35,921 nucleotides of DNA from assembly GCA_025355875.1 (NCBI GenBank), contig JANXYV010000012.1, forward strand, positions 1 through 35,921, written 5' to 3'. The notes beneath the pieces are model-generated. The model searched no databases. It saw only the letters and a list, made by a program, of their open reading frames with translations, and was not told the origin of the DNA. The stretch's first letter is position 1; each line of letters opens with the position of its first letter. The translations under genes were made by a program, and so were the position numbers. This DNA is from Prolixibacteraceae bacterium (GTDB taxonomy: Bacteria; Bacteroidota; Bacteroidia; Bacteroidales; Prolixibacteraceae). Shown here one piece after another: positions 29,743-35,300 of this stretch.

Positions 29743-29895
29743 GTCTGTTCGTAATCTGAATAATCTATTTTGCCACGAAGGCATGAAGACTCAAAGCTCC
29801 ACTAGGAATATACAACAGAGATTCAATGCTTTGGGCATCTTGGGGCTTGGTAGCTGGTAAAATTTTAATGCGGGAAATGTGATACTGCACCTCAA

Positions 29896-29935
29896 CTCAG
29901 GATCGGACTCCAAGTCGGCCCCGGAGTAATGGCAA
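29896..29935 (+). repeat. 40-bp direct repeat, copy 1
   Basis: Begins CTCAGGATCGGACTCCAAGT and ends GAGTAATGGCAA. It aligns without gaps to 30435-30474 (32/40 by eye) and 31341-31380 (31/40). It lies 14 bp beyond the stop codon of the DUF2442 remnant. Confidence 0.7.
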
Positions 29936-29949
29936 AAAGAAGTTTTAGA

Positions 29950-30350
29950 TTATTTGCTGTCCAGATAAAGTGTATCTGGACAAAGATCAGCGCCATTAGC
30001 CCATTGGATACTTCCCAAAAATGGTTTAAGTACTGGAAATGAAATAATGTCGTATAATTTGGTTTGCAATTCTGACTCACCCCCATCACACCTTCGGTGT
30101 TCTGCCCCCTCTCTTCGCGAAGAGAGGGGGGAAGGCCGATTTATCGGACTTCGGGGTGAGTAATATAAAACACGACAGTAAATTATTCCTATTACTTAAC
30201 AGAATTGAATAAGCTTAAATCCTTTAATTCACCAAAAATGCCAATTGCTAAATATGGTTTGACATCAAAATGTCTTATTTCTCCGTTGCTAAACGAAATT
30301 AAAAGAAGAAAATCATTTTCAGGTTTTACATTGGTCACTGTTGGATTCAT
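29950..30350 (-). pseudogene. DUF2442 gene split by a 168-bp MITE-like insertion
   Basis: From ATG at 30350 the frame reads MNPTVTNVKPENDF, then GEIRHFDVKPYLAIGIFGEL, then LKDLSLFNSVK, and stops at 30192 inside the insert. The missing C-terminus, PFLGSIQWANGADLCPDTLY followed by LDSK and TAA (29950-29952), resumes beyond it. Deleting 30029-30196 plus one TA copy leaves 231 bases, exactly 77 codons, with no other defect. DUF2442 proteins are small and often paired with DUF4160 proteins in toxin-antitoxin-like or regulatory pairs; a DUF4160-like remnant lies 7 bp upstream. The clean reading frame suggests a fairly recent disruption. Confidence 0.88.
30029..30196. mobile_element. MITE-like element with TA duplication and cloverleaf-like interior
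   Basis: 168 bp, non-coding. Ends AGTACTGGAAAT (30029) and, inverted, AGTAATAGGAAT (from 30196) match at 18 of 25 positions. TA flanks both ends (30027-30028 and 30197-30198), and only one TA is needed to restore the host gene, so TA is the target duplication, as in Tc1/mariner/IS630-type transposition. The interior folds as an outer stem ACTCACCCC/GGGGTGAGT (30075-30083/30153-30161) enclosing three hairpins at 30088-30100, 30105-30130 (a perfect 26-nt palindrome) and 30136-30147. There is no transposase in the window, so it would have to move in trans. Confidence 0.8.
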
Positions 30351-30357
30351 AGGATTA

Positions 30358-30429
30358 TCACTTTAATGGATCGATCTTGAAAATAACCAGTTTCCTTTAT
30401 ACCTTCAGGTCAATGATCAAGTTCAAATT
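30358..30429 (-). pseudogene. DUF4160-like C-terminal remnant
   Basis: Directly upstream of the DUF2442 start, the minus strand reads NLNLIIDLKV, stop, RKLVIFKIDPLK and TGA (30358-30360). The ending FKIDPLK and the position before DUF2442 are typical of the C-terminus of DUF4160 proteins. There is an in-frame stop, and nothing recognisable remains further upstream, where the 40-bp repeat begins at 30435. The fragment is short, so the call rests mainly on the tail motif and gene order. Confidence 0.45.
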
Positions 30430-30434
30430 CTCTT

Positions 30435-30474
30435 CTCAGAACCTAACTCCAGGTCAGACCCAGAGTAATGGCAA
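30435..30474 (+). repeat. 40-bp direct repeat, copy 2
   Basis: Begins CTCAGAACCTAACTCCAGGT and ends GAGTAATGGCAA; same orientation as copies 1 and 3. It truncates or borders the DUF4160-like remnant and lies 5 bp from the end of the next gene's stop codon. Confidence 0.65.
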
Positions 30475-30479
30475 TTCTT

Positions 30480-30887
30480 CTACCAAAGTGCAGTGTTTTT
30501 CAATGCTTCTCTGAGGGCAGGATCCTTTTCAGCAGCGGATTTCAGAGCTTTGATGATCCGTTCAGTTTTATTTTCAACCGGGGCGAGAGTGGTACGGCGG
30601 TCATAGATAATAAACCCAATCAATCCAAAAATTGACATTAAAACCAGACCGAAACCCCACCTGAAATAGCTGTCGAACTTATCTTCAAGCCGGTTAATCT
30701 GAGTCTGAAAGTTATCCATCCGCTTGTCTAAAGCATCGACTTTGGCTTCAAGTGTTTCCATGCGGGCCTCAGTACGGACAGCACGATCCCGGTCTGCCAG
30801 AGTATAAGGAACAGTTACCTGAGATTCCTGGGCGTTCAACCCGGAAATTAGAAGTAAAGCAGCGATAAAAATGAAGAATCGTTTCAT
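30480..30887 (-). CDS. Small exported coiled-coil membrane protein
   Basis: 135 aa from ATG at 30887, chosen over a longer frame starting at 30926 because it begins directly with a signal peptide (MKRFFIFIAALLLISGLNAQ). A coiled coil follows (VRTEARMETLEAKVDALDKR to about residue 72), then one transmembrane helix (FGLVLMSIFGLIGFIIY) and a short cytoplasmic helical tail ending LREALKNTALW. No enzymatic motif. The layout resembles small membrane-anchored scaffold or sensor proteins of unknown role. It is flanked by the 40-bp repeat on one side and composite element B on the other. Confidence 0.72.
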   Translation of the reverse strand: MKRFFIFIAALLLISGLNAQESQVTVPYTLADRDRAVRTEARMETLEAKVDALDKRMDNFQTQINRLEDKFDSYFRWGFGLVLMSIFGLIGFIIYDRRTTLAPVENKTERIIKALKSAAEKDPALREALKNTALW

Positions 30888-31317: not shown

Positions 31318-31340
31318 GGACATACAACCGTGCAGTTCTG

Positions 31341-31380
31341 CTCAGAGCCCGACCCGAAGTCGGCCCCGGAGTAGTGATAA
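31341..31380 (+). repeat. 40-bp direct repeat, copy 3
   Basis: Begins CTCAGAGCCCGACCCGAAGT and continues CGGCCCCGGAGTAGTGATAA, in the same orientation as copies 1 and 2. Copies 2 and 3 bracket the small coiled-coil gene and composite element B. Confidence 0.65.
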
Positions 31381-32334: not shown

Positions 32335-35300
32335 TTGATTTGTAAACCTCTCCTGACCCTGGGACTGCTCCTGATTTTTGCTGACTTCACCCAGGCCATT
32401 TCAATCAAATCTACCGCCACCGGTGGAAACTGGAGTAACCCAACCACCTGGGTGGGAGGAGATGTTCCTTTGGCTGGCGATGAAGTAACCATTGCTGATG
32501 GGGCCATTGTAACCATCGATACGGATATTCCGGCGTTACTTTCCTTGTCTATCGGGCAATTTTCATCGGGTACTTTGCAATTCGAAGCCGAAGCTGCACG
32601 GACTTTAACGATTGCCGGAATTCTGACCATCAAGCCGGGCAGTGTTTTCCGGAGCGCACCCTCAGGCTCCGCCAGCGCCGTGACCGACCATTCGCTGGTG
32701 GTGAACGGAAGTATTATCAACAACGGAATCCTCAATTTCAGTGCACCGGCCGGTGCAGGAGGAACCACGGCCAATGCTTCAGGCGCCGGAATCACTTTTA
32801 CCGGAGCTTCGAATGCAACCTTCGATTGTTCGTCGGCAAGTCTGACTAATTTAAGGCAAACGAACGGAATCATCCTGAACAAAGGAACCTCAGCAACCTC
32901 GGTGCTTTCATTCGCACCCGGAAAGTCATTCCAGGTTTTATCGGATGGCACTCCGGCAGCAAAAGGATTCCTTTCGATCCTCAACGGAACTTTTAATATC
33001 ATCGGGTCGAATACCTTTCACAATCCGGTATTCGACACCAATGGAAGCTACACGATTCCGGCTACAGGTGGTCTTTGGCTTGGAAATCAGAATGCCACGA
33101 TCGCCGGGATGGATGGAACCGCGACCATTCTGGGAGAACTGAAAATTTCGAACGGGACCTGCCAGGTCGGCATTTCCGGTAATAACTCATCCGGAATAGT
33201 CAATCATGGCCAGTTCCGGATGTCGGGCGGGAACCTGGACATTGCCGGGAAGTTCAGTTTGGAAGATGGAGCATGCACCATTTCCGGAGGAAAAATCAAC
33301 CTGGCCACCAAAGGTTTTACGGCTGATCATGAGCCCACTTTCAACGTTTCACCGCAGGCCAGCCTGCAGATTTACGGAAACCCGGTCATCACGATTGAAG
33401 AACCTGCCGCTGACCAATCCGACGATCTACGGATACTGGCCGGTACCGGGAAAAAATCCATCCGGGGTGGGAACTTCCGGATGGGAACGGCTACGACCCC
33501 GGCAGCGAGCACGTTCTATGTGAACAGCGAAATCCAGATCGCTAAAATTACCGTCTTCGACGAATGTTCCATGCGGATGGTCGATACCTCCCAAGATCCG
33601 GCGATTAACCTAAAAAACGGCTTTGTTTCGAAGCTTGATTTTGAGAACGGCAGTTTTGCACTCACCGCTCCGGATAACAAAATGTTGTTTTGCAAAGGCG
33701 AAATACCTGCACCATACATGAGTTTGCAATCGTTTATCGACGGTGGGGGCAAAGCCAGCCGGAATTGCACACTCATCCCATCCAGCTTTCAGCTGCTCGA
33801 TGAAACCCAAAGCGGCAGCGATTGCCCATACACGATTACACGAAACTATCAGGTAAGCAACATATTCGGGAGCGTTGGCACCGCCAGGCACCGCATTTTT
33901 GTTGAAGCCGAAACCACGCCTGCTCCCGAGACAAAGGTAGTGTTGAAATCGGCGGCGGGGATAATGGCACAAACATCTCAATCATTTACGACATCAGGTA
34001 ATTGGATTTGCCCCGCTGGTGTTACCAGTATTATAGTAGAATGCTGGGGTAGCGGCGGCGGCGGAGCGGGTGATGCCTCCTCCGGAGGTTGGGGAAATGG
34101 CGGCGGTGGCGGTGGTGCTTATGCCAAAATAAATTCATTTACAGTTGTTCCAGGAATTAGTTATTCTTTTAATGTTGGAGCAGCAGGGGCTGGTGGAGCT
34201 GCTGGTAATAATCCTGGTGGAAGCGGAGGTACAACCTCCTTTAACACTTCCACTTGTATTGCAGTAGGCGGTGCTGGTGGTCAGGTTAACAATAGCGGAA
34301 GTGCAGGCGGCACTGGTGGTGCCGGTGGCTTGTCAAGTAGCTCAACTGGCGATGTCAAATATAATGGAGGAAATGGTGCTGCAGGTAGCAATTCGGGTGG
34401 TGGTGGTGGAGGCTCATCGGCTGGAACAGGAATTAATGGTAATAACGCAACAGGTTTAACTGCAGGTACAGCAGTAACAGGAGGGGGTGCTGGTGGCAAC
34501 GGACAGAATAACAACCCAGGCATATCAGGAACCGCCCCAGGCGGTGGTGGTGGTGGAGCTGAATATAGTGGTGCGAATGAGCAGGGGGGTGCTGGTGCTC
34601 TTGGTCAGGTAATAATTACTTGGGATATTCCAGCAGGATATTGTTCTGGAAATGCGGTGACGGTTCTGAGTTCAAATGGAGTAACTAACACTGGTAATGC
34701 AACTGGCTCTTCAGATGCACAAGGAGTTGATCTAAATGAAAGGACTGATCTACTGACACTTGATCTAACTGGCGGTGATTTGCTTACTTCAGGAGGTTCT
34801 TTAACTGTCGCATGGGGTAGATTCAACAATAATCCGGCAAATATAACTGTGGAATTTTCTACTGATGCCGTAACATGGAGTGCACCTGTCACATATACAT
34901 TAGCCGGCAATAGTGGCTGGGCAAATCAAAATATTACTTTTAATATTAACACCAGATATATTCGCTTTGGAAAAACAGTTGCAAATGAACGAATAGTAAC
35001 TGTTGATGCGGTATCTTTTAACACTCCTTGTGCACCGCCTTGTACGTTGCCACAGGGAAGCTTAGCTGCAAACGGTCCATTCTGTGCAACCGGTGCAGGT
35101 CAATTGACATGGACAGCTACTGCCGGAACAGGACCATATACCGTTGTTTATAACGATGGCACCGCAAACCGTACTGCAAACAATGTAACCAGCGGAACTG
35201 CATTTGCAACTTTCAGCACACCAGTGGTCAGCACTACAACCTACACGCTGGTTTCAGTTACCGATGCTGGTGGGTGTGCCAGAAGCAGCGGTTTTACCGG

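Follow-up and report, generated by a model that had tools for sequence, protein, structure and literature searches.

The window (the whole stretch of 35,921 nucleotides analysed here, from contig C182 of the assembled genome of a Prolixibacteraceae bacterium) carries a cupin gene, a DUF2442 gene and a gene for a coiled-coil protein in this order. The DUF2442 gene, which lies on the minus strand (29950-30350), is cut in two by a non-coding insert of 168 bp. The junctions read ...ATGGTT-TA-[AGTACTGG...CCTATTACT]-TA-ACAGAATTG..., where the bracketed part corresponds to positions 30029-30196. All features of the locus that are discussed below are collected in Table 1.

The interrupted DUF2442 gene and its uninterrupted homologues

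The two halves of the DUF2442 protein were run against the PF10387 profile apart, and not as a joined sequence. The N-terminal 52 aa match profile positions 1-45 with an E value of 1.4e-5, above the curated cut-off, and the last part of the gene, which is still open as far as its own stop, matches positions 50-67 with an E value of 0.0089, below the cut-off. The 5' part of the gene closes with GTT AAG TAA on the minus strand, the TAA being supplied by the terminus of the insert. An earlier interpretation made from the letters of the window alone (the sequence-only reading) had proposed that a DUF2442 gene is split here by a 168 bp element with TA at both sides, and both the sequence and the profile matches of the two halves agree with that proposal.

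Landing of the element would cut DUF2442 after codon 52, and its A-G-TAA terminus would give an immediate in-frame stop, leaving the host with a truncated DUF2442 protein at most and probably with an inactivated gene. We regard it as improbable that the 52-aa product of the window is retained and used, with the gene being no dead remnant. The short reading frame is clean and terminates at the element, and in relatives five ORFs of at least 90 aa also finish exactly at such an element, but the missing part covers the last stretch of PF10387, positions 50-67, and it can still be read past the element, as would be the case for a fairly new break.

Table 1. Features of the interrupted DUF2442 locus, in positions of the window.
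Feature	Position	Strand	Basis
Very probable IS630-type MITE, 168 bp, non-coding	30029..30196	+	same termini in own-genome and relatives' copies
Left TA of target duplication	30027..30028	.	TA at 17/19 other copies aligned exactly to left terminus
Right TA of target duplication	30197..30198	.	TA at 19/30 other copies aligned exactly to right terminus
Left terminal inverted repeat, 27 bp, A-type end	30029..30055	+	21/27 identical to left end of G012 IS630 element; 19/27 identical to other MITE end
Right terminal inverted repeat, 27 bp, B-type end	30170..30196	-	23/27 identical to left end of G012 IS630 element
Structured core with three arms, predicted to form a four-way junction, CTCACCCC...GGGGTGAG	30076..30160	+	folds; pairing over 35 copies
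Core arm 1, ACACC-TTC-GGTGT hairpin	30088..30100	+	folding, core alignments
Core central arm, CCCCTCTC...GAGAGGGG hairpin, most constant arm	30105..30130	+	folding, own-genome matches, core alignments
Core arm 3, GAAGGCCGA-TTTA-TCGGACTTC hairpin, one G.A mismatch	30131..30152	+	folding, core alignments
5' part of interrupted DUF2442, 52 aa, stop TAA from MITE end	30192..30350	-	PF10387 positions 1-45
3' part of interrupted DUF2442, open	29950..30027	-	PF10387 positions 50-67, below cut-off

The order of cupin, DUF2442 and coiled-coil genes is shared by contig C104 of another genome of the same genus (G010), in which DUF2442 is uninterrupted and 76 aa long. The cupins of the window and G010 have 86 identical residues (of 115 and 112, respectively), and the products of the coiled-coil genes have 102 (of 148 and 158). 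The flanks of the insert, aligned separately to G010, converge on a single two-base site, reading GGTTTTACAG. Five of the nine DUF2442 homologues tried were alignable on both flanks, and besides G010 their sites read GGTTTTACAG, GGCTTTACCG, GGTTTTACGG and GGTTTCACGG. The site GGTTTAACAG, which the sequence-only reading had predicted for the gene before insertion, is absent from these five alignable uninterrupted homologues, each of which differs from it by at least one base; the G010 site departs from it by a single silent change, which affects a valine codon, and has the same length and phase. An uninterrupted gene of fitting length and phase is therefore present in the syntenic G010, but GGTTTAACAG itself was not seen. 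The sequence-only reading had held that an uninterrupted site with any other sequence would speak against it; taken strictly, such sites are what the homologues have, but the homologues are other species, they fit in length and phase, and a TA at the site is what the lineage of the window would have required. The window is a clear case of gene interruption paired with a syntenic uninterrupted relative.

The sequence-only reading also assigned the window gene to a DUF4160-DUF2442 pair. This association fits the listing of DUF4160/DUF2442 as the type II pair dhiTA in Dickeya (PMC8198452), but the assignment does not hold for the window gene. In a profile search, DUF4160 (PF13711) has no match on the window's contig, and the only matches in the same genome are on contigs C29 and C123. 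On C29 an uninterrupted DUF4160 gene (32440-32634) is located directly before a second DUF2442 gene (32697-32840); the match on C123 is partial. The DUF2442 gene of the window stands alone, without a DUF4160 partner, and the ordinary pair is encoded elsewhere in the genome.

Two further differences and likenesses between the loci were observed. G010 carries two additional small ORFs between cupin and DUF2442 (locus L161, 726-1061, minus strand), one of which is a ParE-like toxin gene (PF05016, E 2.3e-11), and none was seen at the equivalent place in the window. A small palindromic repeat of the form ACTCAG..GACT..AGTC.GAC.C.GAGTAA is found on both sides of DUF2442 in the window (29895-29929, 30434-30468 and 31340-31374) and also at the G010 locus (L161, positions 675, 1374, 1751 and 2771); it has 0 matches in 400 kb of the relative G012 when up to 5 substitutions are allowed.

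Copies, ends and putative IS630 partner of the insert

The window's own genome contains 11 matches to the insert at 8 places, including the window copy, and some of these matches cover the core only. The next two places match with E values of 1.4e-52 and 4.7e-42. Given this number of matches and places, chance resemblance is excluded. Ends were compared using 40 further places, which were fetched, and four loci of the own genome. TA is present on both sides in 11 of the 14 other copies whose alignment is exact at both ends (the remaining three are without the TA pair); the counts for either terminus alone are given in Table 1, and the background of TA in the compared loci is 5.9% of positions. 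These copies are located at unrelated sites and share the termini, mostly with TA, which bears out both the ends at 30029 and 30196 and the TA target duplication put forward in the sequence-only reading. The MITE's own two ends are imperfect terminal inverted repeats, identical at 19 of 27 positions. The insert is thus short and non-coding, and it has dispersed copies with defined ends, terminal inverted repeats and a target site duplication.

The flanks also bear on whether the element was moved by a TTAA-specific transposase, since TTAA specificity is characteristic of IS1380/piggyBac-like transposases. The window site alone fits TTAA equally well (GGT-TTAA-G...C-TTAA-CAG), but other copies have TA and not TTAA on both sides (e.g. 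TTTATA/TAGAAC, AATCTA/TATAAA and CACATA/TAGGTA), and a full-length element with similar ends, described below, codes for an IS630-type DDE_3 transposase. We consider movement by a TTAA-specific transposase extremely improbable. Because the wider flanks vary from copy to copy, the duplication is taken to be TA, and a TTAA duplication is rejected.

Two copies at different sites in G012 are identical at 168 of 168 positions, which indicates recent movement of the family in that genome. Within the window's own genome the nearest copy is that of contig C70, which is without the right end and is identical at 127 of 136 positions over the shared part. The sequence-only reading had called the window insertion recent. 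The second half of the gene is still open and the family has moved recently in G012, but the nearest own-genome copy has diverged to the extent just given, and recency of this particular insertion is only weakly indicated.

Matches to the element occur in 21 of the 61 genomes searched. By group, these are 19 of 23 genomes of the genus (the own genome included), 2 of 14 from other genera of the family and 0 of 24 from other families of the order, and the two matches outside the genus but within the family are weak (E 1.6e-5 and 4.3e-4). When up to 2 mismatches are allowed, the 27 bp end pattern is found in 23 of 23 genus genomes, compared to 0 of 23 for a reversed control pattern; across the family, 45 of 140 genomes have it with up to 1 mismatch. 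Similar 27 bp ends also enclose other interiors, for instance those of the CCCCTGAAGGGG and CGCGGATT types. One end form was scanned for among named contig records and was found in four contigs. Two of these, CAMDGL010000050.1 and CAMDGL010000079.1 (loci L207 and L208), belong to a MAG that carries the MITE family and is labelled, probably wrongly, Chitinophaga pinensis; the others are from a Bacteroidota MAG and from Prolixibacteraceae bacterium STCSWMC_58.

A search with PF13358 (DDE_3) gave matches in 6 of 23 genomes of the genus. One of these matches, in G012, falls within an IS630-family element of 1031 bp with TA at both ends (C1:3439660-3440690). The left end of this element agrees with the left and right ends of the MITE at 21 and 23 of 27 positions, and its right end at 21 and 20 of 27, respectively. 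The first reading frame of this element matches NF033545 (IS630) over positions 1-107 with 42.8 bits, below the cut-off of 100, and the second matches positions 108-297 with 125.2 bits, above it. The differing frames suggest a programmed frameshift, which occurs in some IS630 elements. Relatives of the second transposase frame at E 1e-20 are found in 9 of 149 genomes, including the window's own and G012.

The only PF13358 match in the window's own genome, on contig C51, is a protein 94% identical to the second G012 frame. The left end was not found there, and a left-end fragment is located instead near the edge of contig C199, so that the own genome, as assembled (230 contigs), has no intact IS630 partner. 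Inspected by eye, the own-genome IS630 element seems to be broken at one place, with its right part on C51 (L133, 1-700) and its left end on C199 (L155, 1-282). On C51 a perfect CTCACCCC hairpin of 46 nt and a repeated sequence come before the right part, and the left end on C199 stops at nearly the same base. The sequence-only reading had assigned the insert to IS630/Tc1-mariner-type MITEs, and the resemblance of its ends to those of the TA-flanked G012 element supports that assignment. It had also looked to an IS630-type transposase with matching ends as a check; one is found at full length in the relative G012, but the own genome has fragments only.

We conclude that positions 30029-30196 are, with high probability, a non-autonomous IS630-type MITE inserted in the DUF2442 gene. 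An IS630-family (Tc1/mariner-like DDE) transposase would recognise the 27 bp ends, move the element, insert it at TA and duplicate the TA, presumably acting in trans. An origin of the MITE by internal deletion of an IS630 element was considered and rejected, as the MITE and the G012 element, inspected by eye, have only the 27 bp terminal repeat in common and show no likeness in the interior that it encloses. The ends of the MITE family are fixed to the base, and the family is tied to an IS630 element.

The folded core

The element folds better than shuffled sequences both as DNA (z -6.9, 0 of 200 shuffles as good) and as RNA (z -5.2, 1 of 200). In both kinds of folding an 85 bp core is predicted to form a four-way junction, in which an outer stem (CTCACCCC/GGGGTGAG) encloses three hairpins. 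We obtained 63 core matches (a few of them parsed twice), of which 53 were oriented by their ends, some weakly, and 10 were not orientable; judged by eye, the arms mostly hold their places. Arms 1 and 3 are represented by 24 and 33 distinct stem-loops, respectively. In the five loop-proximal pairs, Watson-Crick pairing amounts to 87% for arm 1 and 84% for arm 3, compared to 39% and 34% when the 3' halves are redealt; the best stems obtained from shuffled arms give 64% and 69%. The corresponding value for the central arm is 99%, compared to 65% with redealt 3' halves and 70% in shuffled arms. The core therefore keeps its pairing while two of its hairpin arms vary in sequence.

For the covariation analysis we chose 35 cores from the 63 matches and supplied the structure by hand; since this structure was read from the same sequences, the count leans towards it. 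Three of the five measures exceed all 500 shuffles: 90.7% of cells are paired (83.1% in shuffled alignments and 44-55% in slid controls), 69 cells are changed on both sides (21.3 in shuffled alignments), and the covariation score is 0.216 (0.094 in shuffled alignments; 0 of 500 shuffles as high). The two others are not above the shuffles, and these are the measures least prone to relatedness: 10 pairs are changed on both sides, compared to 8.0 (55 of 500 shuffles as high), and there are 27 further pair types, compared to 25.4 (122 of 500 as high). Pairing of the core is well shown; selection for this pairing is not, because related sequences can exceed shuffles through relatedness alone.

RNAalifold, run on a plain MAFFT alignment of the 35 cores, did not recover the four-way junction and gave 6 pairs, none of them changed on both sides, probably as a result of poor alignment of the variable arms by MAFFT. 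In a search of Rfam with window positions 29800-30500, none of the 14 matches (E <= 10) reached the gathering score of its family, and a known RNA family was ruled out accordingly. Selection on one RNA strand of the core was likewise rejected, as G.T and A.C mismatches number 8 and 8 over 52 oriented cores and give no strand signal.

Among described elements, the closest kind is RUP of pneumococcus, an IS630-Spn1 MITE that is described as having IS630-like ends, a TA target and no coding capacity (PMC2229807; PMC3049150). Both RUP and the window MITE are about 100-170 bp long, non-coding, TA-targeted and folded, and their ends resemble those of an IS630 element from the same host. Compared by description, RUP is tightly folded with its ends paired together, whereas the window MITE has a predicted closed four-way junction in its interior, with three arms of which two are variable. 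The hosts differ as well, the window MITE being found in Bacteroidota. In that phylum, the MITEs of Porphyromonas gingivalis (BrickBuilt and its relatives) and a Cardinium MITE share ends with resident IS (PMC4596501, PMC9769881). Their described partners are of the IS5 family and ISCca4 (listed as IS982), whereas the partner of the window MITE is of IS630 type, and the duplications of BrickBuilt are given as other than TA in these sources, whereas the window MITE duplicates TA. In the available text of a 2024 review of prokaryotic MITEs (PMC10969869), IS630 and Bacteroid- do not occur, and no IS630 MITEs from Bacteroidetes or Prolixibacteraceae were found among the titles and abstract starts of the open-licence papers listed. 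The element is of an ordinary kind, its family is without a description in the literature that we looked through, and it is the core that is interesting.

Position behind genes and maintenance of the fold

Position relative to genes was assessed for 47 elements in the fetched loci, for which two recognisable ends and TA on both sides were required, so that these elements provide no evidence for TA; genes are here ORFs of at least 90 aa and not annotated genes. Twenty of the 47 elements are located within 30 bp of a stop codon. For TA sites lying outside ORFs the figures are 409 of 3067 (13%) in a 400 kb portion of G012 and 113 of 1247 (9%) in the same loci. The corresponding p values are 8e-7 and 1e-9, from a binomial test that treats elements as independent, although some come from related genomes. 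Compared to the TA sites of G012, elements with MITE ends are thus approximately three times as frequent just behind stop codons. Proximity on the start side is not raised (7 of 47, compared to 580 of 3067 and 174 of 1247). The CTCACCCC-type core is present in 28 of the 47 elements, and 13 of these 28 are within 30 bp of a stop. Five of the 20 elements are at distance 0: the gene runs up to the element, and its stop codon is made up of TA and the first base of the element. Part of the stop-side excess may therefore reflect harmless insertion at or near stop codons. A bias in orientation towards the upstream gene was also considered, but the 15 A-ends and 10 B-ends among the 25 elements within 60 bp of a stop are not convincing.

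The insertion can be explained without the folded core, and in our reading the element is an ordinary MITE whose structured core is well kept. The core might help the element to be tolerated, or might act as a two-way transcript end behind genes. Palindromic repeats of other bacteria are comparable in part; REP/BIME sequences are not known to have 27 bp inverted ends with TA duplication. REP/BIME palindromes have been hypothesised to function in transcription termination or mRNA stabilisation (PMC3733652, PMC2817692), and REPs have been linked to tyrosine transposases (PMC2817692). Correia/NEMIS and ERIC, which resemble the window MITE, by description only, as small palindromic repeats, have been proposed to act via the structure of the transcript, and effects of RNase III and RNase E have been proposed for them (PMC2229807).

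One explanation for the well-kept fold is selection: behind genes the core would end transcripts irrespective of its orientation, or would stabilise mRNA, and selection on the host would keep the well-paired copies. Pairing is maintained in arms of different sequence, the elements are enriched behind stops and not on the start side, and the lack of a clear bias in which end faces the gene is what would be expected of a two-way element. However, the window copy has no T run after the central hairpin, insertion behind a stop is also simply harmless, with the element end regenerating the stop in the cases at distance 0, the mismatches, with as many G.T as A.C, do not point to selection on a single RNA strand, and two of the five covariation measures are not above the shuffles. 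Selection by the host is possible, but we doubt it.

The alternative explanation is that pairing of the arms is kept by mutation, through template switching between the arms of a quasi-palindrome, and not by selection. Template switching makes imperfect hairpins perfect, a process referred to as quasipalindrome correction. The equal mismatch counts are compatible with this account, and the arm sequences differ in blocks rather than base by base (by eye). Against it, mismatches that correction should erase recur, namely the G.A of arm 3 in many copies and a C.T at the base of arm 1, and the outer stem and the central arm are nearly constant. We regard template switching as a serious possibility that falls somewhat short of an even chance, slightly favouring it over a selected structure.

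More speculatively, the observations could be combined into a single picture of a genus-wide family with a four-way junction core, in which arms are swapped as whole hairpins with pairing preserved, and whose ends, which also carry other interiors, distribute structured, orientation-independent 3'-end modules (terminators or stabilisers) behind genes of Prolixibacteraceae. We consider this picture unlikely as a whole. As the two stricter covariation measures fail, the odds of both the 3'-end modules and the selected structure are slightly lowered. The interior of the MITE is not decaying freely and retains a fold. Should this fold terminate or protect transcripts, the host would be receiving 3'-ends from a selfish element; should template switching be what keeps it, the family would constitute a natural record of that mutation process.

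Two minor observations concern other members and sites of the family. A second G012 element (L211) follows a gene, and the matches to this gene in G005, G014, G001 and G021 end within a few bases of the start of the element. Other folded-looking interiors, 156-338 bp in length, are present at L142, L145, L151-L153 and L156-L158.
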